Of a DNA stretch of 60,545 nucleotides, positions 11,314 to 60,524 are shown one piece after another; position 1 is the first letter of the stretch, and each line of letters begins with the position of its first letter. The notes below the pieces were generated by a model. The model worked only from the letters and a program-made list of their open reading frames with translations. It did not search any database and was not told the DNA's origin. Source of the DNA: Ignisphaera sp. (GTDB taxonomy: Archaea; Thermoproteota; Thermoprotei_A; Sulfolobales; Ignisphaeraceae); assembly GCA_038735125.1 (NCBI GenBank), contig JAVYNU010000007.1, forward strand, positions 1-60,545, written 5' to 3'. The position numbers and the translations under genes were made by a program.

Positions 11314-11435
11314 TATTGCATAGCATGGTTAATACAAGTGTTGTCTGTTTGTTATGCTATTACCTCTGAGTGTTCTAGGTATTGCGCAAAGTTTTTAGTC
11401 CTAGTATACACCATTTAAAAGTTGGAGTATGGCGT

Positions 11436-12617
11436 ATGTATACAAACAGGCATCTCTTCAGGGGGCTGTCAGAGCTAAATGCTATAGCTGTTCTACTCGG
11501 TCTTTCCATAGCTTTCTCAATGGCTTTTTTCGTCTATATCAATAGTGAATATGCCTCGGGTCAGACCAATGCACAGATCTATAGAGTTGTCGAAAACGAG
11601 AAGATGAACACACTGATAAAGCTTGCATCGGCAAGCGGGGACTCTGTTACCCTGCTCCTCAAAAAATTTGGCGGCACCAACACAATATCTTTCTTCATAT
11701 ACAACGGCACGGCCTACGACGACTGCTCCAAGATTGTGAAGAGCTTGGTCGGGGGTGCCATTACCTATGTCAACACATACAATGTAGACGATATACTTGT
11801 TGTGCCAAGCGATGGCAGGGGAAACCCCTACAGCTTCCGCTACTATGCGAGGTCAATGGGATATCCAGACAGCGGCAAAATAACTGTGTGCACAGTTGGA
11901 CTCAGTGGAAACACTGTTGCTGTTCTAACAGGTGGTGGCCTCAAACCGCAGTACCAAGGCTATAGCTACACAGAGTTTTATTCTAATGGGCGTAAGTGGA
12001 GAATGTTCGGAACAATAGAGTTTACAGTAGCTTATCTAGGCAACCCCAACGGGAATCACCTAGCATATAACGGGACTTGGATACAGCTTAGAGTGGGGGA
12101 CAGGGTCAGAATAGATGTAGACACGCAAACAGGCAAGATAGACATGACCCCGCAGACACTGCCCAACGGAAAGTTTGGTGCATGGATTCTCTCGCTCAAT
12201 GTATTTGCCAAGGCTGTATACCTAAACGGCGCCCTCATAGCCCAAAACGTGCTCGTAGAAATGGTAAAATCTGAGGTGGCAATCGACCTCGGAAGCCTGT
12301 TCTCCTCCATAAGCATAGAGATATACCCCAGTCCACCGGGCTTCACGAGGATTAGGTATGGGGGTGAGACAATTCTTGACGACTGGAACAACAGCAAATA
12401 CGTAAGAATCTTTGGATGGATACCATTGGTGTCTAATGATTATAGGCAGATGGTTCTTCAGCTAGATAGTGGAAACCTCTATGCCCAGGGCTTTGCCTAC
12501 GCCATATATATAAGTGATAAGCCTTCCTATGGTGTTGATAGGCTGTCACTCTTTGTTGTGACGTATATCAATAACAGGCCCTATTTGGTCGACGTATATG
12601 ACTATAGGCTCAGCTAG
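11436..12617 (+). CDS. secreted pilin-like protein, subfamily A (operon gene 1)
   Basis: A 393-residue protein with an archaeal class III (type IV prepilin-like) signal: FRGLSEL, where peptidase would cut after Gly, followed by a hydrophobic helix AIAVLLGLSIAFSMAFFVY. The rest is beta-rich and extracellular. It shares with the next gene the landmarks LLKK, YNGTAYDDCSK, a Y-A-x-x-MGY-x-x-SG motif before a second Cys, and the C-terminal pattern VVTYINNRPYLVDVYDYRL. The two conserved Cys may form a disulfide. A region of about 200 residues is inserted relative to gene 2. The start is ATG 11436, with GGAG 8 bases upstream; a TTG at 11382 is less likely. Probably a fibre or pilus subunit; no known family was recognised. 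Confidence 0.75.
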   Translation: MYTNRHLFRGLSELNAIAVLLGLSIAFSMAFFVYINSEYASGQTNAQIYRVVENEKMNTLIKLASASGDSVTLLLKKFGGTNTISFFIYNGTAYDDCSKIVKSLVGGAITYVNTYNVDDILVVPSDGRGNPYSFRYYARSMGYPDSGKITVCTVGLSGNTVAVLTGGGLKPQYQGYSYTEFYSNGRKWRMFGTIEFTVAYLGNPNGNHLAYNGTWIQLRVGDRVRIDVDTQTGKIDMTPQTLPNGKFGAWILSLNVFAKAVYLNGALIAQNVLVEMVKSEVAIDLGSLFSSISIEIYPSPPGFTRIRYGGETILDDWNNSKYVRIFGWIPLVSNDYRQMVLQLDSGNLYAQGFAYAIYISDKPSYGVDRLSLFVVTYINNRPYLVDVYDYRLS

Positions 12618-12680
12618 GTTTTTTACCTTTCCAAGTCTTTTACATAGTGAGAAGGGTTTGTGTGGGTGGTGGGTAGGTTT

Positions 12681-13328
12681 ATGAGGGGTCAGAGCGAGCT
12701 TCTATCAACTTTTGTTATCATAGGTGTGGCTGTGGTTATAGGCGTGGCCATGATAAGCTATTTCGTTCCTCTGGTCTCTACGTATAGAAGCAATGTTGAT
12801 CTTGCTAGCTATCTCCAGAAAGAGGCTTCGAATAACCTCATCAACATAGTTTCCTACGATGATGCCTCCTCGAGTCTGTGGATTCTTCTTAAGAAAGCTG
12901 ATGGCTCCTCTACAGACTTTTTCATAGCTGTTGATGTGAATGGGAGTTTTCTCAACTGCTCAAAGGTTCTCGTCTATAATGTGACTAGAGACAGCAATGG
13001 GATTCTATGCGACTCTAAAGATAGTGACTGTGCTAAGGCTGTGGAGGTTTTCAGGGGATCTCTAAACAGGGTTTATATACCGTGGGGAGGGGCTATAAGC
13101 AGCTACCTCTCCTACGCCAAGGCGATGGGCTACACATCGAGTGGTGACATGCCCATTTGCAGAGTTTGGAATGTCTGTAGATACACAGCCAAAGCCGGTC
13201 TATGCGGAGAGAGCACAATAGCCCAGCTACAACTGGGTGGCACAACAACAAAAGTAAGGATACTTGTGATTGCATTCTACAGCAACACACCCTATGTGGT
13301 TGGGATACACGAGGTGGCTCTCAGATGA
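12681..13328 (+). CDS. secreted pilin-like protein, subfamily A (operon gene 2)
   Basis: A 215-residue protein. It starts MRGQSELLSTFVIIGVAVV, a class III signal peptide with cleavage expected after RG, then a single hydrophobic helix and a beta-rich ectodomain. It is a shorter paralogue of gene 1: the same LLKKADGSS, NGSFLNCSK, YAKAMGYTSSG and final FYSNTPYVVGIHEV. The start is ATG 12681, by analogy with gene 3, which starts MRGQAN; the frame is open from 12660. The stop overlaps the start of gene 3 as ATGA, so translation is coupled. Confidence 0.75.
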   Translation: MRGQSELLSTFVIIGVAVVIGVAMISYFVPLVSTYRSNVDLASYLQKEASNNLINIVSYDDASSSLWILLKKADGSSTDFFIAVDVNGSFLNCSKVLVYNVTRDSNGILCDSKDSDCAKAVEVFRGSLNRVYIPWGGAISSYLSYAKAMGYTSSGDMPICRVWNVCRYTAKAGLCGESTIAQLQLGGTTTKVRILVIAFYSNTPYVVGIHEVALR

Positions 13329-14971
13329 GGGGCCAGGCAAATGTGATAATAGCAACTGTATTCTTCTCACTACTCCTCATACTTGTCATACCCCTGGTAC
13401 TCAGCATGTTCTACACAGCCTCATCCAGGCAGCCAATCTATGAAGACCCCGTCTACAAATCCCTCTCAATCTCACTAAAATCTGTTGGCCAAGACATCAC
13501 AGCATTCTACAATGCCTCCAACTCAATGCTGTGGATATCAAATACAGGTGGGGGGGACATAAGAATAGAGAAGACAATTCTATACATATCCTGCCCCAGC
13601 GGAAACACATACACCAACTACTACATAAACACAAAGACTGGTCTCGTAATACCCTCTGGAAAAACAGTACAGCTAAAAGTCAACGCCACACTACCCTGCC
13701 AAAACCCTAACACAAAGTCCTTGTACCTTATCACAAGCGAGGGGGCTGTCATAAGTGCAGCAGTTCTAACACCACAAGACCTCCAAGCAATGAGGGGCCA
13801 AAGGCTAAACACTACACTGCCCGCCAGCCCAACAGCAGCAAAAACAATTCTGCCAGTAGCTGTATCTACTCAAGACACAATATGGAACATATCCATTCTG
13901 AGACAAAAAGGCTTCGAAATATACACACTAGACAGCATGACAAACCCGACAAAGATCATGCCCTACACAAACCTATCCAAAGGAATGAGGGGAGGGACAA
14001 CAACAACCTACATATGGAGATTGCGAGACGTATTCGAGAGAACCAGCATAAGCATATCCAACCAATATGTAAGATGCATCTGGATAGGCTACGACCCCAG
14101 AAACACATCAAGATATAACATAATCATAACAACACGCTCAATCCAGATGAGCATTGGAGGAACACAGTATTCAACGAGTACAAGTACATACACAAGGATA
14201 AAGATATACGGCTTTACACCCAGAACCCCCAACGGAATTCTAAGGCTCACAGATACGAGACTTGGAAGTAATGTGTGGATTAAAAGACCCGACCAAGATG
14301 TTGCCGAGTACACATTTTTGTCGTCTGGACAGCAGCAGCCTGGGCAGATCGTCACATTGGATGGAACAGCAGATAGAATTGAGGTATACACTCGTGAGAC
14401 TGGCACGGAATCTGGGTACAACCCCTACACAATGCTTATGAATACCGATGGCAGTAGGGCGGCAGGGATACTCTTTACAACAATAGATAGAACTTACGGT
14501 GGAAGCTTGTTCAGTTTAAACGAGGGATACGATAGTCTCATCGATTATTCGACCCTTCTACTGGTTCTTGTGTACAAAGGATTTGCAGTGTATAACACGA
14601 ATAGCTCAGCTGTTGTTATAGCTGTTAACTACAAGTTCCACGATAACGAGGGTTTAGATGCTGATGGCGTGACTGTGGATAGTCCAATAATGTTTGTTGG
14701 CCTGGTTAATGAGAGTGGATATGTCTATAGCTATAGGAGCTACACATTTAGGGAGCTCACAAGATATGAGGACACCTATCCACCAACAGCACAAGCCCAG
14801 AGCAGCTTGGTGTTTATAACCCTTCCGCCTAGGGATCAGGGTGTGAAGAAGTTCTATGTGTTTGTAGCAATACAAGATCCCTATAGCTACAACTATTATG
14901 ACGACTACTATTATGACGACGTTGACTTCACACTCTTTATAGAATCCCTAGTGGTGTTGCCTGTGGGGTAG
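13325..14971 (+). CDS. secreted pilin-like protein, subfamily B (operon gene 3)
   Basis: A 548-residue protein. The signal is MRGQANVIIATVFFSLLL (cut after RG) with a long hydrophobic helix. An N-terminal beta domain follows, with the pattern N-T-G-G-G-D-I-R-I typical of archaeal pilin/flagellin folds and a Cys pair. A long middle region leads to a C-terminal domain shared with genes 4 and 5: a FHD...D-rich loop, Y-R-x-Y-T-F-R-E-L-T-R-Y, then FVAIQDPYS and an Asp-rich DDVDFTLFIESLVV. The acidic loops suggest calcium binding. The start is the ATG of the ATGA overlap with gene 2. The ectodomain is far larger than in normal pilins. Confidence 0.75.
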   Translation: MRGQANVIIATVFFSLLLILVIPLVLSMFYTASSRQPIYEDPVYKSLSISLKSVGQDITAFYNASNSMLWISNTGGGDIRIEKTILYISCPSGNTYTNYYINTKTGLVIPSGKTVQLKVNATLPCQNPNTKSLYLITSEGAVISAAVLTPQDLQAMRGQRLNTTLPASPTAAKTILPVAVSTQDTIWNISILRQKGFEIYTLDSMTNPTKIMPYTNLSKGMRGGTTTTYIWRLRDVFERTSISISNQYVRCIWIGYDPRNTSRYNIIITTRSIQMSIGGTQYSTSTSTYTRIKIYGFTPRTPNGILRLTDTRLGSNVWIKRPDQDVAEYTFLSSGQQQPGQIVTLDGTADRIEVYTRETGTESGYNPYTMLMNTDGSRAAGILFTTIDRTYGGSLFSLNEGYDSLIDYSTLLLVLVYKGFAVYNTNSSAVVIAVNYKFHDNEGLDADGVTVDSPIMFVGLVNESGYVYSYRSYTFRELTRYEDTYPPTAQAQSSLVFITLPPRDQGVKKFYVFVAIQDPYSYNYYDDYYYDDVDFTLFIESLVVLPVG

Positions 14972-14982
14972 AGGTGGTGTGG

Positions 14983-16473
14983 ATGAGGAGACTGTCTAGA
15001 GGCATTTCAGAAGCTGTTGCTGTTGTCATAGCCTTTGCCATATTGTCTGTGGCTATGCTATATCTGCTCACAAACCTCTTGTTAGTGCCTGTGGCCGAGC
15101 AGAAAGCTGTTGAACTACCCCTAGGCTATTCAGATGAAAGTCTCGTGCTGTTTGTTGCAGGTGGGAATCTGATGGTGAAAAACGTTGGCTCTGTGCCTGT
15201 GCACATAAAATATATTGTAGCTATAAACATGTCTTCTAATAGCAAAGTTTTGTTGAATTCGCTTCGCAGTACACAATGCAACTTCAATGCTTCTAACGCT
15301 GTCATCAACCCTGGGGGGACAGCAGCTATCACTTGTGCAAGCGGCTATGCACCTCTAGCTGTTGTTACTGAGAGGGGTAGGGTGTTCTCCATAGACCCGA
15401 GGTTCTATGCCATAGCTATTGGGAGAAGCTATGGAATACCCATGACAACGGTTTATGGCGGAATAATGTTCACATCATCGTCAGGCCTTCTCAAATTTCT
15501 AGGTCTTAAGAATAAGACTATGATGTATAGCGGGGCTGTGAACACATCGATAAAAATGGATCTCTATCTCAACACATCGGGAAACATAAATGCAAACTTA
15601 AACGCAGCACTCATATTAATTGGCCTGAACCCTGCTAACAACAAGCTGAACATGCTGATTATCGGAAGTGGCAGTTTGGGTAGCGGCCAACAAATAACTG
15701 TAAATAGTGGTAGTGTGGACTTGAGCAAAGTTGCTATGTATAGGTATAGGCTGAAGATAGAGAACTTCTCGGGAACAATAAGCCCAAATCTGGGGCCAGG
15801 TATATACCCATGCTACATAAACTTTAGCAGAGGTTGCCAGCTAACAATAAACGGTAGAGCAGATAGAATTGTTCTCTATACAAACTCCTCTAAAATCACT
15901 GGAGGTATTGTTGGTCTAGACCCATACATATTTGTTGGAGATCTAAATAAAAATGGCAATGTGGAGGTGGTTTTTGTTACCCAAGACTTCTCTACAGGCA
16001 ATAGCAATAGTGTAAACGATGTTCTTACAGTCTCTGGTCGGCGGCAAACATATGTTGATGCAACTGTAAAGCCTGTTAGGCTAGTCTTTAGTGGGACACC
16101 CATAGACAGTAGCAGGTATAGAATGGCGATTCTGAGTCTCGGCATGTTCTTCTGGGACAACTCTGAAGATGATGTTCAGGACAACGATAACAGGGTTATA
16201 ATGAGGGTTGGGCTATACGATGCTGTGAACAAGTCTTTTGTGTATAGCACATATCTAAGCTACTACGAGCTTAATAGGTATAGGAATGTAAAACCCTTCT
16301 CCATATCGTATATAACGAAGGACTTTATGATATATGTGCCCAACACCGGCCGCACATACTATGTTGCTGTGGAGATTGCAGACCCATATAATGTTGAGGG
16401 TGCTAGAAATGATGCAGATATAATACTCGGTTTAGAGTATATAGGTATAGCCCTGTCTGTATATAGTGGGTGA
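14983..16473 (+). CDS. secreted pilin-like protein, subfamily B (operon gene 4)
   Basis: A 496-residue protein. MRRLSRGISEAVAVVIAFAI is a textbook class III signal (RG, then I-S-E and a hydrophobic helix). The N-terminal beta domain has VKNVGSVPVHIKYIV and a Cys pair, with the pattern C...INPGGTAAITC. The region FVGDLNKNGNVEVVFVTQD resembles an EF-hand-like or FG-GAP calcium loop. The C-terminal domain matches gene 5: FFWDNSEDDVQDNDNRV, SYYELNRY, YYVAVEIADPYN and DADIILGLEYIGI. The start is ATG 14983 with GAGGTGG upstream; a GTG at 14974 is possible. It lies 11 bp after gene 3. Confidence 0.75.
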   Translation: MRRLSRGISEAVAVVIAFAILSVAMLYLLTNLLLVPVAEQKAVELPLGYSDESLVLFVAGGNLMVKNVGSVPVHIKYIVAINMSSNSKVLLNSLRSTQCNFNASNAVINPGGTAAITCASGYAPLAVVTERGRVFSIDPRFYAIAIGRSYGIPMTTVYGGIMFTSSSGLLKFLGLKNKTMMYSGAVNTSIKMDLYLNTSGNINANLNAALILIGLNPANNKLNMLIIGSGSLGSGQQITVNSGSVDLSKVAMYRYRLKIENFSGTISPNLGPGIYPCYINFSRGCQLTINGRADRIVLYTNSSKITGGIVGLDPYIFVGDLNKNGNVEVVFVTQDFSTGNSNSVNDVLTVSGRRQTYVDATVKPVRLVFSGTPIDSSRYRMAILSLGMFFWDNSEDDVQDNDNRVIMRVGLYDAVNKSFVYSTYLSYYELNRYRNVKPFSISYITKDFMIYVPNTGRTYYVAVEIADPYNVEGARNDADIILGLEYIGIALSVYSG

Positions 16474-16478
16474 CGCAC

Positions 16479-18173
16479 ATGATTAGAAGGGGTGTTTCAA
16501 CAGCCCTGATAGCCTTTGTAATAGCTGTCATAGTTCTAACGCTGTTTACATACATGTTTCTCAACACCTACTTCTCCCTCCTCAGCTCATCGATGACCTT
16601 CGGAAGTGTTGCCAGATACTACCACAGCTATGAGGTGTCCAAACTTGTACTCAACACCACAGGCAACAAAGTCTATATGAAGAACGTTGGATCATCCGAT
16701 ATAGTTATAGATAAGCTCGTCGTAAAAGACTCCACAGGATCTGTAAAGGTTCTCCAATCAGCCGACGTTCAGACGCTATGCAGCTCAAGGGTGATCCCCG
16801 CACAGCAAAGCATTGAATGTAGCTCAGGATACGACTACCTAGCTGTTATAACGCCAGACGGCGTTGTGATAAACCCCCAGCAACCTGTTGTAAAAGGCTA
16901 TTTGGTGAAGACTAACACAACTTACATAATACCCATAACATTCTCCGGCATAAGTAGCCCCCTAGACTTTGTGCAGCTATTCAATGTGAGTAAAGAGCTT
17001 GTAGCCAAGCCATATACAAATGCAAGGGTAAGAGGGATGACATCTGGTGATCAGCTGCTCTTGCTTCCACTGGGTCAGGAGAGCGAGTTCTACAAAACAT
17101 CTGTTCAGACAGATAACAATGGGGTTTCATTTGGAGTGGCTGTGATAGGCTATGACCCAAGCTGGGTAAGAGAAAAGCAGCTCAACCCCAATACTGCTAC
17201 TCCACCGAGGTTCTCGATAATGATCGCAGGGCCCAAGGCCCAAAAAGAAAAGATTACTTATGGGAACAGACAGGTAACCCTATCTGAAAACGGCTACAGG
17301 ATTTTGATACGGAACTTCACAGGTGTTGTAAAAATCTTGGATAGCTCTGGCAATACAATTGCCTGCACATCTTCTCTGCCAAGCGATTGTGGAAATGCTG
17401 TGCGCTCGGCCATGGGCTTCTGGTACTATGGCACAACAGATCTTGGATACAGACTATACCTCAGTGGTGTAGCAGACTATGTAGCCAATTTTATGAGGAT
17501 TGCCAGTAGCAATTCCCCAACTCGTGAAACCAGCTACTACCCCTATATATATGTAGGCGATGTGGATGGAGACAACATGGTCGATATAGTGTTTGTGACA
17601 GAGGATGCGTACTATGGTAGCACTAGCAGGGTGGACGATTGTGTAGGTAATTGCAACCCGCCTCGCGGTAACGACATTGATTTGAGTGATTGGAGCACAG
17701 TACCTCTAAAGCTGGTGCTCCCGCAGGTGGGGAAAGCGTTGGGATCTTCAGATGGGTCGATAGATGGGAGTGTATATGCTGGAGTGACCCTGTATATGAA
17801 TATATTCTTTCACGACGACTCCTACCCAGATGAGAACCAGCTCCAAGACAATGATAGAACTGACTGGATGCTGAGGATTCTCCTCATAGACGATAAGGGC
17901 AATGAGTATGTGGTCAGAGAGTATAGATACCAAGAGATATGCAACTACCACAAAACACGTATAACAGACTTTGACAAGGACAACTACTTTGTGAAGTTGT
18001 CCCAGTCCATATATGTGCCACTTCCATCAACTGGTAGATACTGGATTGCTATAGCTTTCCAAGACCCCTACAGCGAGGAAGTGGAATACTCAGGGGGTCA
18101 CACATACTATGTAAATGATGTTGACATCACAGTGGGTGTAGAGTTCATAGGTGTGGTTCCCTTCTTTAGATAG
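16479..18173 (+). CDS. secreted pilin-like protein, subfamily B (operon gene 5)
   Basis: A 564-residue protein. The signal is MIRRGVSTALIAFVIAVIVL (cut after RG). The N-terminal beta domain has YMKNVGSSDIVIDKLVV and the Cys pair seen in gene 4 (CSSRVIPAQQSIEC). VGDVDGDNMVDIVFVTED is a strong calcium-type loop (DxDGDxxxD). The C-terminal domain carries FFHDDSYPDENQLQDND, a YRYQE segment, IAFQDPYSEE and VNDVDITVGVEFIGV. It starts at ATG 16479 (or GTG 16470, overlapping the gene 4 stop). It is the last gene of the operon. Genes 3 to 5 are clearly paralogues. Confidence 0.75.
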   Translation: MIRRGVSTALIAFVIAVIVLTLFTYMFLNTYFSLLSSSMTFGSVARYYHSYEVSKLVLNTTGNKVYMKNVGSSDIVIDKLVVKDSTGSVKVLQSADVQTLCSSRVIPAQQSIECSSGYDYLAVITPDGVVINPQQPVVKGYLVKTNTTYIIPITFSGISSPLDFVQLFNVSKELVAKPYTNARVRGMTSGDQLLLLPLGQESEFYKTSVQTDNNGVSFGVAVIGYDPSWVREKQLNPNTATPPRFSIMIAGPKAQKEKITYGNRQVTLSENGYRILIRNFTGVVKILDSSGNTIACTSSLPSDCGNAVRSAMGFWYYGTTDLGYRLYLSGVADYVANFMRIASSNSPTRETSYYPYIYVGDVDGDNMVDIVFVTEDAYYGSTSRVDDCVGNCNPPRGNDIDLSDWSTVPLKLVLPQVGKALGSSDGSIDGSVYAGVTLYMNIFFHDDSYPDENQLQDNDRTDWMLRILLIDDKGNEYVVREYRYQEICNYHKTRITDFDKDNYFVKLSQSIYVPLPSTGRYWIAIAFQDPYSEEVEYSGGHTYYVNDVDITVGVEFIGVVPFFR

Positions 18174-20928: not shown

Positions 20929-21918
20929 ATGATTAGGAGGGTTGATGATAGGCTTTTGTGGAGCGGCTACCCCTCAGCACATGATGTTGAGAAGGTTGCG
21001 AGAGAGGGTGTGAAGCTTATCGTGAATCTAGTGGACTATTCCCCCGGGAATGCGAAGTACTACAAGGTTGCAAGGTCTCTGAATGTAGATGTGCTGGCCT
21101 ATCCCATAAAAGACTTTGGCTTCAGGCCTCCAGAGGATGTACACTTCCATGTTTTGAATTCTGTTCTGAGGGTTGTGCAGGGGGGTGGGCTGGCTCTAGT
21201 ACACTGCGAGGGTGGTATAGGTAGGAGCGGGACTGTTGTAGCCATGTACCTAATGCTTAGGCATGGCCTTGGCGTAAAGCAGGCTCTATCCCGTGTCAAG
21301 AGCCTTGGCGGCGGCCCAGAGTCTGATATACAGCTCCTGGCCCTGGAATGGTATGGGAGGGCGCTGTCTCTGCTAGGCTCCAGCGGTCTAGACACCGTCC
21401 TTGAAATTGGACACAACTACGACTTTGGCTGGGGCATAGACCACGCATCGACTGTGGCCAACATAGCCTGTGACATAGCCTCGCTACTCGGATTCAACAA
21501 GAAGATGCTTGCAGAGCTTTACATAGCAGGGCTCCTACACGACATTGGAAGGGCTGTGGCCAGCGATGATAAGCACCATGTTAAGAGCGCTGAGATTGTT
21601 ATGGAGCTGAAAAATGCTGTGGAAAGATACGGGGATCCGGAGGCAATAGCGTTTCTGCTAAGAAACCATAGAACAGAGACAGATCCGAGGAGAGACCATT
21701 ACGCCAATAAACTCGGGCAAGACTATGTTCTGCTCGCATCCATACTGAGACTAGCAGATGCATTCACAGACATCTACGGTGAAGAGGAGTATCTTGGTGC
21801 GGAGCTCAAAAACAATAGAATAGCTATCAAGACTAGTAGAGCCGATGCAACTAGGGTAGAGACAAAGGCCCAGATACTGAAAGAACTGGGCTACAACATA
21901 GAGCTGGAACCCATTTGA
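20929..21918 (+). CDS. dual-specificity phosphatase-HD domain fusion protein
   Basis: A 329-residue two-domain enzyme. Residues 1-145 are a dual-specificity/PTP-like phosphatase with the P-loop HCEGGIGRSG (Cys93, Arg99) and a plausible general-acid Asp62. Residues about 160-310 are an HD-domain metal phosphohydrolase: the first His in GIDHAST (His172), the HD pair in LLHDIGR (204-205), then HH at 216-217 and a late Asp in RLADAF. Both active sites look intact. PTPs act on phosphoproteins or phospholipids, while HD domains often cut nucleotides or cyclic nucleotides. The fusion suggests coupled signal removal, which is inference. It is a lone gene. Confidence 0.85.
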   Translation: MIRRVDDRLLWSGYPSAHDVEKVAREGVKLIVNLVDYSPGNAKYYKVARSLNVDVLAYPIKDFGFRPPEDVHFHVLNSVLRVVQGGGLALVHCEGGIGRSGTVVAMYLMLRHGLGVKQALSRVKSLGGGPESDIQLLALEWYGRALSLLGSSGLDTVLEIGHNYDFGWGIDHASTVANIACDIASLLGFNKKMLAELYIAGLLHDIGRAVASDDKHHVKSAEIVMELKNAVERYGDPEAIAFLLRNHRTETDPRRDHYANKLGQDYVLLASILRLADAFTDIYGEEEYLGAELKNNRIAIKTSRADATRVETKAQILKELGYNIELEPI

Positions 21919-52156: not shown

Positions 52157-54349
52157 ATGGATGGAGAGAAGATTTTTGTGCTAGCCTTTCCAATAACCAT
52201 TAGCAAAGCCCCCAGCACCATATACGAGTATCTGGTTCCCGAGGAATACATAGGCTTTGCACGCTCGCTGCTATACCAAGAGAATATACCGCATGCAGTA
52301 GAGAGAAGAGATGGTGTAACCGGGTTAATAGTATATGCAGCTGATGAAAGCGACAAACTAGAGAATAGAGTGGGTGGTGCTAAGAAAAAGCAGGTAAAGC
52401 AGGCAAAACTCTCACCAGACATAATCAACAGGCTTATCTCTTCGGCCATAAGAATAGCCTTCATCAACAATGGGTGGGTAAGCTCATCATCAAAGCTCTA
52501 CAACCCCGACAAATCCGAGGCCCAGCAGCTAGCCAAAGAACTTGCCCTAAGATACACTGCTGTCAGAATCGCGGTTGACGATCTAGGCAACGAGACTAAA
52601 GCTCTATTCATAGACCCAACATCAAAGATAGAGTTTATCTATAGTTTGAGGTACATCCACGAGAAGTATCCTCAGCAGGCAGAGAAAATAGACTTTGTTA
52701 AAATTATGGGAACAACAGTTTCATTCTACACTGTGAAAAGCGAGGTACCAGAAACAAACATAGAATATGGCGATGTCATAGAAAAGGCTATCGAAACAAT
52801 AAATATGTTTAGAGGCACAGAAATCGACACGTCACTTAGCAGAAAAACAGATAACATAGTCTATGTAACGCCAAAAAGCGTAAAACTCTCGACAACTCTC
52901 CAAAACAGGATACCTGGGCTACCAACCATAGGCAAAAACCGAGTGGCAATACCACTGCCAATGGAGATTCTAACACCAGTGGGATCGCTAGACAACATCG
53001 CTCTATTCGAAAAGGTTCCAATTCTCACCAAACCACCTCACGAAAGATTCAAACAAGCCTTGGAGATCCTCACCAACACCATCTTAGAAAGCGTCAACAA
53101 CGTCAAAGGTATGCAAGTCTCTATCAACACTCAAAATATTATTGAGGTTCCTCCCAGCTCCGTACACCTCACCCAAATAAAGAGCAAGTATTGGAAGTGG
53201 TACCCAAAATTCGAGGGTAACAGCAAAAGAGTGCTACTTGTGGTTACTTCACCTGGTAATTCGAAAAGGTATGATAGAAGATGTTCAATTGCAACAGATA
53301 TCATTAAATCCTTGGCGGTTAGCTGTCGTTTGCTTAGTTCTCCCAGGCTTGTACAAGAGATCATGTTTTTAGATAATCTAGAAGACATTTTGAAAGCATA
53401 CAAAGATTATGATGAGAAGTTTGCGATATTGCTATATGATAAGAGCTTGGATAAAGAGGAGATAGACGATATCATAGGCAGGTTCGAGTATAAAGCCGCT
53501 AGCCAGGGCTTCTATCCGCATGAGCTTGGAATAGAGACAGATATAGATGAAGATGATTTTAAGCGCAGGATCCCATTCAAGATCCAAAGCATTATAAAAG
53601 ACTTTGCTACAAGAATTGGTGCTATACCCAATGATCTAAACCCACCTAGCGGGCTTGAAGACGCCTATGTTGTAGGGATAGATGCGACAACAGTTTCTGT
53701 AGGAAGAAATCAGATATATTTAGGTGTTGTAGTCGTAACTGTGAAAGCCGACAACATAAAAGACTATAGTGTAGAATTCAAATACATCGACGAAAGCGAT
53801 ATAGAGGTTCTGACCACCATCGTAGAGGATATTGCTAGTAGATACAAAAAAGCGCTCATCATGGTAAACAAATCAAGTATAGAAAGGTTCCTAGAGGAAC
53901 TAGAGAAAGAAAAGCTTCAGAACCATGTAATAGTCGGTATTAGCAAGACACATTCATATTCCAGAATACTGGCCTCTGCATCGATAAAAGGCGGAGCTGA
54001 AATTAGATATGTTAACCCGCCTAGAAGCGGGGTATTCGTAGAATTGTCGCCGACATGGCTCAAAGACATAAGGATTTCTAGGTATCTTGGGGTCACAACA
54101 AACTCGATAAAGGGCGAATATGAAAAGGGTACCATAAGGCCTGTGATAGTAAATATAGCAGGCAATGCTGATCACAAAAGGGTCTTAGACTACATCCAGG
54201 ATCTAACACACTACGCCTCCATATCCACTGTCTGGCTACCATCAATACCATGGCCACTACACAAAGCAGATAAACTATGCAAAAAGCTGAACAGAATCAT
54301 AAAAGTCAGCAACAAAATACCTGACTCATCTATACTAAGAAGACTGTAA
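52157..54349 (+). CDS. prokaryotic Argonaute (long, predicted catalytically inactive PIWI)
   Basis: A 730-residue protein. The C-terminal 230 residues are a PIWI domain: YVVGIDATTVSVGRNQIYLG (first catalytic Asp at 509), LIMVNKSSIERF where active enzymes have an RDG-type Asp (about 571), KGTIRPVIVNIAGN, LTHYASI, and PSIPWPLHKADKL (about 697-706), the conserved last helix. Before it lies a MID domain (about 345-500, with LSSPRLVQEIMFLD and KAASQGFYPHEL). N and PAZ-like parts occupy the first 340 residues. Only one of four catalytic residues is clearly in place, so it likely binds guide and target without cutting. It is in operon with the DUF2797/GIY-YIG-like gene, like other inactive pAgos that recruit an effector. 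Confidence 0.8.
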   Translation: MDGEKIFVLAFPITISKAPSTIYEYLVPEEYIGFARSLLYQENIPHAVERRDGVTGLIVYAADESDKLENRVGGAKKKQVKQAKLSPDIINRLISSAIRIAFINNGWVSSSSKLYNPDKSEAQQLAKELALRYTAVRIAVDDLGNETKALFIDPTSKIEFIYSLRYIHEKYPQQAEKIDFVKIMGTTVSFYTVKSEVPETNIEYGDVIEKAIETINMFRGTEIDTSLSRKTDNIVYVTPKSVKLSTTLQNRIPGLPTIGKNRVAIPLPMEILTPVGSLDNIALFEKVPILTKPPHERFKQALEILTNTILESVNNVKGMQVSINTQNIIEVPPSSVHLTQIKSKYWKWYPKFEGNSKRVLLVVTSPGNSKRYDRRCSIATDIIKSLAVSCRLLSSPRLVQEIMFLDNLEDILKAYKDYDEKFAILLYDKSLDKEEIDDIIGRFEYKAASQGFYPHELGIETDIDEDDFKRRIPFKIQSIIKDFATRIGAIPNDLNPPSGLEDAYVVGIDATTVSVGRNQIYLGVVVVTVKADNIKDYSVEFKYIDESDIEVLTTIVEDIASRYKKALIMVNKSSIERFLEELEKEKLQNHVIVGISKTHSYSRILASASIKGGAEIRYVNPPRSGVFVELSPTWLKDIRISRYLGVTTNSIKGEYEKGTIRPVIVNIAGNADHKRVLDYIQDLTHYASISTVWLPSIPWPLHKADKLCKKLNRIIKVSNKIPDSSILRRL

Positions 54350-55208: not shown

Positions 55209-57455
55209 CTACACCACATATTCTTTGCCACTATTCCACAGCTCATCGAATTTCCTAACATATTCACCAACCTTGGCAGGGTCTGTAATGATTTTACTCA
55301 GATTCTCTATGTTGAATGTCAGTCCAGATTTTGCGAAATTGGACGAGCCCTCGATAACAACCATATCATCTATTATTATCGCCTTTGCATGGAGGTCCTC
55401 ATTTATCCTCACCTTGATACAGCCTCCCAACCTGTTTCTTAACTCATTTACAGCTGTTCTCGAAACCCCATCATCAACAGCGTTTTTACCCAATATCACA
55501 TAGATGTTGCCCCCATTTCTGCAGAGTTCTGAAAGAGTCTCGATTATATTGTTGTCTATCGATGTATTTGATGTTATTATCCTAAGCTTTGCCCTAGCCA
55601 TTTTCAGCCACGGCAATATAATGTCTCTGATGTTTGTGCCTAGACTCAAGTCCTCCCCAGTTCTGCTATGCTGCTTAGTCAGGTACTCCACAACAGTATA
55701 GCTAACAGAAAGAGGCTCTAGAAATGGCCCTAGAGAGCACCCATCCTCGATAAACCCACAGCCAATATTCCCGTCAAATGCTGAGAACATCGATATTACC
55801 CTCTCTATAATATTGCCAAAGGCTTCGCTGAGCCTGCCTGGCACCAACTTCCTCTGTAGAATATACCTGATTGTGTATGGGTGAATTGTAACCCCATGTC
55901 TACGGTATACCTCGTACAGTAGTGAGATGAATCTGCCCAACTTATTTGCAGTGTCAGCTAGTTCCCTATCTCCTTGTGCATATTTTGCAACATTTTCTAG
56001 AAACCTCTTCAACTCGGCTACATCCCTATCATCTATACCACCCCTGCAATACTCTTCCACAATTCTAGATCCAATCAACGACTCGTTGTACAAGCTCTTC
56101 ACAATTATTTCGTATAGCCTAGATTTTTGCATCGCCAAGTGCTTTAGGTATCCCAGCCCACCAGAAACGGTTTCATACAAATATATCTTCCATTTGCCAC
56201 CATCATACAGAACCCTATATGACAGATAATCTTGGTCGAGACCCAGATCACTCCATAGCGAAGAGATTATGTTGTGGGCTATTGTGTGCACGACTATAAA
56301 TCTGTAATACTGTTTGTTTGCTTCATCAAGACTCTTCGAGTCTCTGACAAGCGTATCAAATGTTTCGGCATTGTTTGATTGTATTGTACTGTATAGACGC
56401 TTCCAAGGTGCCAAATAGTCTGGTTTCATATCGCATTTAGAATCATCACAAAGCTTGCTTTCAGACAACAAAACCTTTTTGTAGACAACCCACTTATGCT
56501 CCATCAAATCGTTTACAATTTTGTCAAGTGTAGAGGTTTCAAACTCTAGAACAATAGCATCTGTGTTTAGAATCCTTATACCTAGTGTGTATCTAAAGGA
56601 TGCAAAGTGGTATGGAATCCAACACTTCTTTGGCTGGAAAACCACCCCCTCGTAAAAAGCTAGCAGAGATAATTCGTCAACAAAATACACATATGCTAAG
56701 GGGTGAAAACCAAATGGTATAACAAACAATCTAACTCTAGACCTTTTTCTATCACCTTCCACAGTCTCTGAGTCGAGCGGCTTTACCTTAATTTGTGGAA
56801 TAACCTTATATAAACCGCTGTAAGTCTCTCTAATGCTATACAAATTCCCACTGCACCTTCCCCATATAGCAAAAGGACACACATATTTGATTGGACACGA
56901 CTCCCTATGCGATATTAAGACAAGGCCCCGAGGACAAAAACGTGGGTGTGCCAATGACTCGTAGCTGTACTCTGCTAGCAGAAACAGCCCACTGTGCTTA
57001 CTTAAAAGGTTCCTCAGCCTATGATACCCGATATAGATATAGATATCCTCTGTTAATGCCTGATACAAAATACTGTGTAGAACCACAACATAGGGCCCCT
57101 CTTTTTTGAATTGAAAAGCAGGCCAATCCACATATTCATATATATTATATCTATTGTCAACAGATATGGGAAGCTTTCTCAGTGTACTACGAAACCAGAA
57201 CCCCCATACATTTTTCTTTGGATACTCTCTTTTGAGAAGATCAATCAAATTCTTTTCGCAAACATCCCCAAAATCTTTGTAGTAAAATGCTTTGAAGCCC
57301 GTTGGAGGTAGTATAACCAATGTATAAGCATCGCTAGGCTCTTCACCAGCCCCTCCACCATGTTGCTTATAAACTATCTTAAATGGGGTAAATGTATACA
57401 ATGCTTCGAGGCCTCTCCTCTCATACCCCCTCTCATATCCGCTGCGATCCAGCAT
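55209..57455 (-). CDS. DUF1998-phospholipase D fusion (DrmB-DrmC-like)
   Basis: A 748-residue protein. The middle (about 385-460) is DUF1998, the DrmB/MrfA hallmark: VVHTIAHNIISSLWSDLGL, then YLYETVSGGLGYLKHL. Cys clusters (RESCPIKYVCPFAIWGRCSG near 200; CDDSKCD near 345; CGFIEDGC near 580) may bind zinc. The last 130 residues are a PLD nuclease-like domain with one HKD motif (LHAKAIIIDDMVVIEGSSN), as in DrmC. In DISARM these are separate genes. It is 12 bp downstream of the helicase gene on the same strand, and convergent to the EVE gene. Confidence 0.75.
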   Translation of the reverse strand: MLDRSGYERGYERRGLEALYTFTPFKIVYKQHGGGAGEEPSDAYTLVILPPTGFKAFYYKDFGDVCEKNLIDLLKREYPKKNVWGFWFRSTLRKLPISVDNRYNIYEYVDWPAFQFKKEGPYVVVLHSILYQALTEDIYIYIGYHRLRNLLSKHSGLFLLAEYSYESLAHPRFCPRGLVLISHRESCPIKYVCPFAIWGRCSGNLYSIRETYSGLYKVIPQIKVKPLDSETVEGDRKRSRVRLFVIPFGFHPLAYVYFVDELSLLAFYEGVVFQPKKCWIPYHFASFRYTLGIRILNTDAIVLEFETSTLDKIVNDLMEHKWVVYKKVLLSESKLCDDSKCDMKPDYLAPWKRLYSTIQSNNAETFDTLVRDSKSLDEANKQYYRFIVVHTIAHNIISSLWSDLGLDQDYLSYRVLYDGGKWKIYLYETVSGGLGYLKHLAMQKSRLYEIIVKSLYNESLIGSRIVEEYCRGGIDDRDVAELKRFLENVAKYAQGDRELADTANKLGRFISLLYEVYRRHGVTIHPYTIRYILQRKLVPGRLSEAFGNIIERVISMFSAFDGNIGCGFIEDGCSLGPFLEPLSVSYTVVEYLTKQHSRTGEDLSLGTNIRDIILPWLKMARAKLRIITSNTSIDNNIIETLSELCRNGGNIYVILGKNAVDDGVSRTAVNELRNRLGGCIKVRINEDLHAKAIIIDDMVVIEGSSNFAKSGLTFNIENLSKIITDPAKVGEYVRKFDELWNSGKEYVV

Positions 57456-57467
57456 AGGCGCCTTACC

Positions 57468-60400
57468 TCACAAAGGCCTAAGACCTACAGTATCTATGCT
57501 TTCCCAGGCAAAGGTTATGGGGATAATCTTAGACACTATGTTGAAGAACTCATCACGTAGAACCATATACCAACACATGCTCAGTTTAATCGCATCGATT
57601 TTATTGCACTCTTCAATATCATACCCGCTAAAATTGATGAATTCGCTTATCGCCATAAGTAATGATGCAGGGCTCTTTTCAATACTATTTCTTAATAGAT
57701 TAAAAAATGGCTCTAAGCGTTTGCGTATTCTCATTAACTCGACATTGTATATTTCTGGCAATACACATTCAACCATAATTTTATTGACTCTGTCGATGTC
57801 TGTAACAGGCATTTTACTAGGAAACATTGACATAGTTTTGCAACCTTCCAAATCTCGTTTTTTGTTAAGTTTATTATACAATTCTTGAATTAGAGAATGC
57901 AAATATGATTGAATAGATGATATGTTAACATATGAAGCACTTGAGTTTTCAAACCTAGTTACATCTTTCTCAACATCTTTCACTATATTGTATATCTCTT
58001 TTAGTACGTCCTTTGTACACTTGATTACTTCTTTCTTATTATCTTTCAAATTAATACCGTATCTCTGCAAAATGAGTTTGATTTCTTGGCTCTCTCTTAA
58101 GAATTTTAGGGGTTTCTTTTTTGCTGCTCCATATTCTTTTAATAGCTTTTTGATCTCCTTTCTAAATTCTTTCCATGTCTCTATTGGTTTTACTGCTTCT
58201 AGCTGTTCTTTAAGCATTTTCATTAGTTTAAGGAAGTCTGCTTGTGATAGTTTCTTCAGTAGCTCGTCTCTAACTCCCCATCTTCTCAGCCATAGTATAT
58301 TTTGGCTATTCAGCGACTCGGCGATGTATTGAATCATAATGTTTTTGGCTTCATCTAATCTAACCTCACCTATTTTGCCATTGAGTATAGAGCTTTTCAG
58401 CTGTTGAATAATATGATATTCTAGAACACGTTGGAGAAAGACTAGTTCAAGTGTCACTTCGTCAGGTAAAGCAACATCTTTTTTCTGTTGTGGTCTACTG
58501 AAAAACCTTTGTATTGTCACGGGGGTTAGCGTAGGTATGTAGAATGCTAGCGAGATTCTATAGGTATTTTCCTTTCTACCAGCTCTTCCGACTCTTTGTT
58601 CCAGCGCTTCATCGCTTATGGGGTCTTTGTATTGTACAATGAATGCGACGTCGTCATAGTCCATTCCCAGGTCTAGTGTCGATGTAGCTATCAATGTTTT
58701 TAGCGAGCCGGTCTCAAACTTCTTTTCAATCTCGCGCCTCTGTTCTTCGTTTAATCCGCCATGATGCAGACCTACGTGGTTGATCAATGTGCTGAGCTTT
58801 TCAATCAAATCCTTTACATATTGCATATTTGATAAATCGGTTAGATGGACCCAGCTATAATCACTGTTATCTCTTGTGAGAGCATCTCTGGGCGTCAACT
58901 TATCGTATTCGTGATTTCTACAGGAAACTTGGTTTATGTGGTCACAGAGTTCAACACCTCTTCTATACTTAAATGTTGTTGTTATGTAGTCCATTATTGT
59001 GCCTGTCTCGCTTATGCTATCAATGAATACTATGGACTTTAGCCTTCTGCCCATCTGTATTAGGAGTAGGAGCTGTATAATCCCATGCAACATTGTTTCA
59101 ATACTTCGTCTATATGGAAGCAGTGTAACAATAATCTTAAGTCTACGTTGCTCCTCATGCCTTGGCTCAAGCTCCTCATAGTCTAGACTTTCAACAGACT
59201 GTTTGCTTACACCAAACATCCATCTAACAAGGTCTTCAACATCTGATAGTGGGATAGTGGCAGATGATGTTATAACAAGAGGTTCTTCATCATAGATTTT
59301 ACGTAATTGAATAAGTAATCTAAGTATTGCTGTTAGTGGTACGTAGTTCACGTTTATGTAAACATGCGCTTCATCCAATATTACGACTCCACACCCTCTA
59401 TATAGTTGCTGGTATTCGCTTTTTGGATGCAACAAACGCTGTTCAACAGTCCAAGGATTGGAGATTAGTATGTCCGGCTTTTTAAATGCTACCTCATCCC
59501 TATCTTCCTTGGTATACACTATTCCTACAAGAAAATCCAGCGGCTTATTATCCGAGCATTCATATCTTATAGCGAAATTGTTTTTATATAGTGCACGTAT
59601 TGTTAGCTTATCGTTTTCTGGGCATGGAATTCCCGTGTCTATATATTTCCCCTCTAAAAGAGGTTCTAATCCATATCTAACCCCGCTGTCAACAGCCAAG
59701 GTTACCGTGTATCGTTGGAGCCCAAGCTCTTTAAGTTTATTATTTATGAAGTAAAGGGGTTTTACCAGTCTCCCCAACTGCTGCTTTTGAAGAGCCCTCC
59801 TTGGATATACTATTAGAACCCTATTTTGATTTCCTCGATATTTGAATAAAAGTGAATGGGCTATTGCAACAATTTGGAATACCAAGGTCTTGCCTGTAGC
59901 TGTTGGCGCTGATATGACGAAGTATCTCCTCTCTTTTGATGCCATCAAAATTCTTTCTATGGCCTTCAGCTGCCACTCAGCCAGTTTCTGATACCCGCTT
60001 CTATGAAGCCCCTCTACAATGGCTTCGCAAAACCTCTCTGCAATGTCTTTTTTCACACCATTATCTATGAAGAACCTCGCCAAAACATTCTTCAGATCTG
60101 AAGAAACACTTCTAGCCCCAAAATCAGGTGCATACTCATACTCAATATCTATGTTGAAACCTCCAACCCACCTCCCATTCAAATCATCCTCATAAGCTCT
60201 GCCCCTCAAAACCCTAAACACCAAATCCCCATGCAAAGTAGTGTAAATAGTAGCGCCATCCACCTTGCCAAGCTCAACTAGCATACCATCACTGATAAGC
60301 CTACCCAAAACATTTTGATCCACCTGAGTCTTAGGAACCACCCGAATCTCATAGCCCATGACACTATGAGAAAAAACTCTTTCTTTACACGACGGCCCAA

Positions 60401-60524
60401 AACAGAAAACAACATACCTCAACAATCCTTGTGTCTTAGAAGACTCCATCTCTTTAAGCTGCTCTTCAACAAGCTTTTGATAGAAAAGCATATGTGATAA
60501 TTGACTCGTTAGCTTCACCCTCAA
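57468..60524 (-). CDS. DISARM/MrfA-like superfamily 2 helicase (DrmA-like)
   Basis: A protein of about 1018 residues. An N-terminal 190-residue domain precedes the helicase core: Walker A APTATGKT (about 204-211), DEAH in VVILDEAHVY (about 380), SSAT, and motif VI in ALEQRVGRAGRK (about 640). From about 680 on it is helical with a coiled coil (LKEQLEAVKPIETWKEFRKE). It pairs with the DUF1998-PLD gene, so it resembles a split MrfA or the DrmA helicase. The exact start is uncertain: TTG 60524, GTG 60518 or ATG 60491. A TATA-like TTTTAAAA at 60531-60538 lies just upstream. Confidence 0.75.
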   Translation of the reverse strand: MRVKLTSQLSHMLFYQKLVEEQLKEMESSKTQGLLRYVVFCFGPSCKERVFSHSVMGYEIRVVPKTQVDQNVLGRLISDGMLVELGKVDGATIYTTLHGDLVFRVLRGRAYEDDLNGRWVGGFNIDIEYEYAPDFGARSVSSDLKNVLARFFIDNGVKKDIAERFCEAIVEGLHRSGYQKLAEWQLKAIERILMASKERRYFVISAPTATGKTLVFQIVAIAHSLLFKYRGNQNRVLIVYPRRALQKQQLGRLVKPLYFINNKLKELGLQRYTVTLAVDSGVRYGLEPLLEGKYIDTGIPCPENDKLTIRALYKNNFAIRYECSDNKPLDFLVGIVYTKEDRDEVAFKKPDILISNPWTVEQRLLHPKSEYQQLYRGCGVVILDEAHVYINVNYVPLTAILRLLIQLRKIYDEEPLVITSSATIPLSDVEDLVRWMFGVSKQSVESLDYEELEPRHEEQRRLKIIVTLLPYRRSIETMLHGIIQLLLLIQMGRRLKSIVFIDSISETGTIMDYITTTFKYRRGVELCDHINQVSCRNHEYDKLTPRDALTRDNSDYSWVHLTDLSNMQYVKDLIEKLSTLINHVGLHHGGLNEEQRREIEKKFETGSLKTLIATSTLDLGMDYDDVAFIVQYKDPISDEALEQRVGRAGRKENTYRISLAFYIPTLTPVTIQRFFSRPQQKKDVALPDEVTLELVFLQRVLEYHIIQQLKSSILNGKIGEVRLDEAKNIMIQYIAESLNSQNILWLRRWGVRDELLKKLSQADFLKLMKMLKEQLEAVKPIETWKEFRKEIKKLLKEYGAAKKKPLKFLRESQEIKLILQRYGINLKDNKKEVIKCTKDVLKEIYNIVKDVEKDVTRFENSSASYVNISSIQSYLHSLIQELYNKLNKKRDLEGCKTMSMFPSKMPVTDIDRVNKIMVECVLPEIYNVELMRIRKRLEPFFNLLRNSIEKSPASLLMAISEFINFSGYDIEECNKIDAIKLSMCWYMVLRDEFFNIVSKIIPITFAWESIDTVGLRPL

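Follow-up and report, generated by a model that had tools for sequence, protein, structure and literature searches.

The five genes at positions 11436 to 18173 of the window (the whole 60,545 nt stretch of DNA analysed, which is contig C7 of a 1.81-Mb archaeal genome that is 99.9% complete) would, on the reading that we favour with some reserve, encode a hetero-oligomeric minor-pilin complex of an Ups-like type IV pilus, acting as its tip adhesin; the tip position and the ligand are drawn by analogy. That they provide accessory subunits of such a pilus in one capacity or another is likely. Because the genes travel with a known type IV pilus machine in related genomes, adhesive tip or accessory subunits are suggested rather than a new fibre.

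The pil operon

The five ORFs all lie on the + strand: pil1 (11436..12617, 393 aa), pil2 (12681..13328, 215 aa), pil3 (13325..14971, 548 aa), pil4 (14983..16473, 496 aa) and pil5 (16479..18173, 564 aa). There is an alternative TTG start for pil1 at 11382, 54 bp upstream. The intergenic gap is 63 bp between pil1 and pil2, pil2 and pil3 overlap by 4 bp, and the remaining gaps are 11 and 5 bp, suggesting that pil1 to pil5 are very probably one operon. The initial annotation had described a five-gene operon of pilin-like surface proteins, and the ORFs, the shared strand and the tight spacing agree with it. pil5 is 100% identical in the Thermoproteota MAG DRTY-1.bins.6, and the next homologues are in Ignisphaera MAGs.

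Elsewhere in the window, 20929–21918 encodes a 329-aa protein in which a dual-specificity phosphatase domain is fused to an HD domain. The segment 45901–50977 encodes a Type IIG-like restriction-methyltransferase of 1219 aa and, after it, a BrxL-type Lon-like ATPase of 474 aa; no other BREX genes were seen, and the pair is a possible two-gene defence unit. Adjoining this pair is a 730-aa protein (52157–54349) that matches pAgo/PIWI weakly (E about 2e-8). On the opposite strand, 55209–60524 encodes two proteins, one of 748 aa with a DrmC/DpdK-like region at its C-terminus and a helicase-like one of 1018 aa with DrmA/BrxH-like matches, together possibly a remnant or variant of a DISARM/Dpd-like defence system.

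Signals and paralogous families

All five products open with a short basic leader ending in RG (FRG/LSEL in Pil1, MRG/QSELL in Pil2), followed by a hydrophobic stretch of 20–26 residues with a mean Kyte-Doolittle value of 1.7–2.3, and none of the five has a second stretch of equal hydrophobicity downstream. The class III signal and one hydrophobic N-terminal helix by which archaeal type IV pilins are recognized are therefore found in 5/5, and cleavage is predicted. This part of the initial annotation stands, on the sequences and on the helices in the AlphaFold2 models. N-glycosylation sequons are not enriched over shuffled sequences.

BLAST comparisons between the paralogues (Pil1–Pil2, E=1e-7; Pil4–Pil5, E=4e-24; Pil3–Pil5, E=9e-13) uphold the proposed division into two subfamilies, Pil1/Pil2 and Pil3/Pil4/Pil5. 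The shared features reported for each were also confirmed: CSK, MGYxxSG and the last strand in Pil1/Pil2, and a Cys pair, acidic loops (GDVDGDNMVDIVF, GDLNKNGNVEVVF) and DPY in Pil3–5. Pil2 is the small conserved partner, and Pil1 has the same type of head with an insert of about 180–200 residues. In the alignment of 30 Pil3–5 homologues, conservation is among the highest in the acidic loops and DPY, and P355, D446, P516 and D529 (Pil5 numbering) are invariant. We found no convincing kinship between the two subfamilies; a profile comparison showed no common head and gave only a short 39-column match, which lies outside the pilin part.

Pil3, Pil4 and Pil5 as modular pilins

Single-protein look-ups in Pfam, NCBIfam and PDB sequences gave nothing above cut-off for Pil1–Pil5. 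The curated models gave sub-threshold UpsB matches only (Pil5, 17.7 bits against a cut-off of 70), and the NCBIfam cut-offs for UpsB and UpsA were not reached. A profile of Pil3–5 built from 30 homologues, however, matches PDB 8fk7, an archaeal pilus subunit deposited as 'Flagellin', with E=2.4e-6 over positions 4–137. The heads of Pil3–5 are thus homologous to a solved pilus subunit, and 8fk7 is also the top PDB match of the genome's own 150-aa pilin on C1. The earlier statement that no known pilus family was recognized consequently holds for curated models at cut-off but not for the profile. Similarity to a described archaeal pilus or flagellin had been named as grounds for refutation, and we find it for the N-terminal pilin part of Pil3–5 but not for the C-terminal module.

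Pil1 and Pil2 have no significant match to pilins by sequence. A fold search with Pil1 returned common beta folds only and listed the archaellar filament 8cwm at a Z of no more than 4.8. The AlphaFold2 model of Pil1 has an N-terminal helix at residues 3–58.

In an order-wide search, many genomes match the Pil3–5 profile at positions ~1–150 only, often in small ordinary pilins, and others match over 1–526. This suggests that Pil3–5 are, judged by sequence, an ordinary archaeal pilin with a C-terminal module of ~350–415 residues, and we refer to them as modular pilins. They are indeed far larger than ordinary pilins, as had been pointed out, and the size comes from the extra module on a normal pilin.

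The AlphaFold2 model of Pil5 (23 sequences, pLDDT 83.7) agrees with this architecture. It has a long N-terminal pilin helix at residues 2–53 (16482..16637, + strand), a pilin beta head with the Cys pair and homology to 8fk7 at residues 56–124 (16644..16850, +), a low-confidence linker at ~138–146, and a beta-rich module with the acidic loops and the DPY motif at residues 150–564 (16926..18170, +). Pil5 is therefore made up of pilin-like residues 1–135 and the module 150–564, the C-terminal graft that is characteristic of modular minor pilins. Structurally, the module is most similar to MAM (meprin; Z 8.7), the gingipain K2 adhesin (8.0) and CBM4 (7.7), and this weak jelly-roll resemblance may reflect a common arrangement alone. 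Weak FG-GAP matches in family members would fit a calcium loop. Foldseek matches of Pil5 to large toxins (TM 0.2 or less) were discarded as fold noise.

Pilin-type signals are also carried by surface proteins other than pilins: the Sulfolobus Bas system displays sugar-binding proteins with class III signals (PMC4187195), and one homologue in our set has a weak BasB match (E=3e-4). The operon might on this account encode a non-pilus surface complex, either a bindosome-like binding set or a short pseudopilus. We regard this as improbable, as no solute-binding-protein Pfam domain was found in any of the 30 family members, which led us to reject a bindosome proper, and no ABC transporter was found directly beside the operon in the window.

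Pilus machinery in the genome

A search of the rest of the genome for a prepilin peptidase, ATPases and platforms, which had been proposed as a check, found all three. There is one prepilin peptidase-like gene, at C1:169 kb, which is FlaK/PibD-like and below curated cut-offs. ATPases and TadC platforms are present on C1, C2, C3 and C10, with type IV pilus-type machines at C1:572–576 kb (machine 3) and C10:30–33 kb, an archaellum-like one at C2:0–7 kb, and one on C3. Machine 3 consists of an ATPase, a fused two-domain TadC platform and a ~150-aa pilin; the platform resembles UpsF (E=5e-32) and the pilin resembles UpsA (E=7.5e-8), all below curated cut-offs. No type IV pilus machine lies near pil1–pil5 in the window's own genome.

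Two further loci were noted. At C3:93–97 kb a TadC gene is accompanied by three pilin-like genes (177, 145 and 444 aa); its likely ATPase is ~35 kb off, at C3:131 kb among ribosomal protein genes, and in G003 the distance between pil1 and a homologue of this ATPase is 3.6 kb. The second locus, at C1:575.8–579.5 kb (L061:9807–13475), encodes a protein of 1222 aa that looks secreted and has a weak carboxypeptidase-regulatory-like match. Its gene is often adjacent to that of the machine-3 ATPase or divergent from it, and the protein may be an S-layer-like component or an anchor of the pilus.

Linkage of the operon to the machine in relatives

Linkage was read locus by locus from gene maps. A machine-3-type (Ups-like) ATPase, TadC and/or small pilin lies beside homologues of the operon in 13 genomes from 9 genera and 5 families (G003, G008 and G009 of genus g1; G015, g2; G024, g12; G034, g21; G053, g30; G132, g53; G167 and G169, g16; G100 and G101, g40; and G080, g34). 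In G008, G167 and G080 the contig with the homologues carries no part of the machine but the small pilin, which lies at its end. In both G024 and G034 the order is ATPase, TadC, pilin, modular pilin and small pilin, all on the same strand, and the gene maps list no further sizeable gene among them. The end of contig C16 and the start of C6 in G008 share 354 bp at 91% identity; if the two contigs join, the run is probably ATPase-TadC-pilin-pil1-pil2-pil3-pil4-pil5 on one strand, but the match could instead come from separate copies of the pilin gene.

Assuming one machine-3 TadC per ~1.6-Mb genome and a window of ±10 kb, the chance of linkage in 8 of 21 genera is ~1e-10; this estimate is rough and takes the genera to be independent. 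Additionally, in a sample of the phylum the module was found in two genomes only outside the order, and both copies are in TadC/ATPase operons.

The initial annotation had suggested an undescribed extracellular fibre or thread. The class III signals in all five proteins and the linkage to an Ups-like machine do not favour an independent structure of this kind, and we have dropped it as the leading interpretation. Sulfolobus threads assemble without class III signals and independently of the class III peptidase (PMC9715654). Identity with the thread (Saci_0406) was rejected because threads need a Sec/SPI signal and Pil1–Pil5 all carry class III signals.

A separate heteropolymeric fibre could also be made mainly of the five large pilins, with the shared type IV pilus machine acting in trans to assemble it. 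The five pilin genes have no small pilin gene between them, operon and machine are unlinked in several genomes (the window's genome, its near-twin G005, G136 and the g59 genomes), and large-pilin filaments do exist, as in the Iho670 fibres of a 33-kDa pilin-like protein (PMC4187195). However, the operon encodes neither an ATPase nor a platform, linked machines and operons are usually separated by a small pilin of the major type, and a single copy of each paralogue would be unusual for a bulk polymer. We therefore give such a fibre little credence.

Distribution, partner gene and phylogeny

The C-terminal module is present in ~45 of 214 genomes of the order and in none of the genomes listed for family f11 (probably Sulfolobaceae). 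In 41 of 47 loci the modular pilin gene has a pil2-like gene of 198–241 aa next to it. A contig end truncates four of the six loci without one; the remaining two are distant ones with another gene of ~195 aa in the partner's place, in one case with a match to a Class III signal domain.

In a maximum-likelihood tree of 52 proteins, Pil3, Pil4 and Pil5 form three separate clades (support 100/99, 100/99 and 100/100). These have closely similar internal branching across families f1, f2, f8 and f9, with one copy of each, as would be expected of a fixed hetero-complex. The pilins of genus g53, which belongs to f9, fall among those of g1 rather than with their own family, as does its TadC (54–59% identity with that of the window's genome, compared with about 28–38% for other f9 genera). 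This points to the pilins and the machine having been inherited together. In G136 the pilin locus and the TadC locus are on different contigs.

G001 and G004, which belong to the same genus, have the machine without the five-gene operon, suggesting that the set is an optional, dispensable part of the pilus; G006 has neither. By a rough hand count that ignores kinship, the machine is present in ~36 of 44 module-bearing genomes and ~103 of 170 others. The machine is found in many genomes that lack the module, and co-occurrence was rejected as too weak to serve as the sole argument.

A second, smaller set is present in the window's genome at C1:424.8–426.6 kb (L183:6829–8624), where a pil2-like 205-aa gene and, after it, a pilin-like gene of 396 aa lie between the EF-1alpha/rpsJ region and a peptide ABC transporter. 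A similar pair (L182) is present in G001.

The homology to 8fk7 and the linkage to the machine would apply equally if the five proteins were accessory pilins scattered along the same pilus shaft and decorating it. Non-core minor pilins in bacteria are spread along filaments and are dispensable (PMC10191384), and the operon set is dispensable too. We consider shaft decoration unlikely, since modules of 350–415 residues would be bulky along a shaft and the strict conservation of three paralogues, one of each, together with their partner fits a defined complex better.

Proposed minor-pilin tip complex

Core minor pilins are the first subunits to enter a type IV filament and remain at its tip, where modular pilins present adhesive domains (PMC10191384, PMC9934059), and the small partner and modular pilins of the operon match this layout. 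In the tip complex that we favour, the prepilin peptidase at C1:169 kb would cleave all five proteins after RG, as the motif suggests. Pil2 and its enlarged copy Pil1 would pair with Pil3, Pil4 and Pil5, consistent with the near-universal adjacency of their genes. From homology and linkage, the N-terminal helices would be inserted into the filament base that also takes up the major pilin, by means of the ATPase and platform of the latter. By analogy with PilABC of Streptococcus sanguinis, the complex is probably the first part to be assembled and comes to lie at the tip of the pilus, with bulky modules that would serve there as adhesins, possibly calcium-dependent and glycan-binding ones. The genomes in which operon and machine are unlinked, and the relatives that have the machine but not the set, count against this reading. 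We infer the tip position, the stoichiometry, the ligand and the calcium binding.

Archaeal pilus tips are little described, and this family is a concrete, order-wide candidate, in which gene order links a pilin partner and between one and three modular pilins to a single machine. If the interpretation is correct, the grafting of large modules onto pilins, as in some bacteria, also occurs in archaea, and soluble domains can be used to test what archaeal pili attach to.

Comparison with known systems

The PilA/PilB/PilC proteins of S. sanguinis are modular minor pilins that have been placed at the tip by modelling (PMC9934059). Like the products of the operon, they combine a small pilin partner with large pilins that carry modules grafted on the pilin part; unlike them, they are bacterial and the modules are von Willebrand A and ConA-like lectin domains. 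No sequence kinship between the two sets was found.

Among archaeal systems, UpsF and UpsA of Sulfolobus resemble the machine-3 platform and 150-aa pilin, below curated cut-offs. Aap pili, the case in which archaeal tips have been studied best, have two-pilin loci and one minor pilin candidate, AapA, and whether AapA is a cap has been left open (PMC11178815). The Iho670 fibre of Ignicoccus hospitalis, compared by description, resembles the operon products in that its protein is large, carries a class III signal and comes from a hyperthermophilic crenarchaeon, but its bulk is one 33-kDa protein.

Finally, Makarova et al. (2016) noted three to four extra components of untraceable origin in the type IV pilus systems of Desulfurococcales clade 4A and proposed, by analogy, that these are a minor pilin set (PMC4858521). 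Matched by description, the operon family is probably this same set. To the untraced components of that study our analysis adds the pilin-plus-module architecture, the near-constant Pil2-like small partner, the three parallel paralogues and the computed order-wide distribution.
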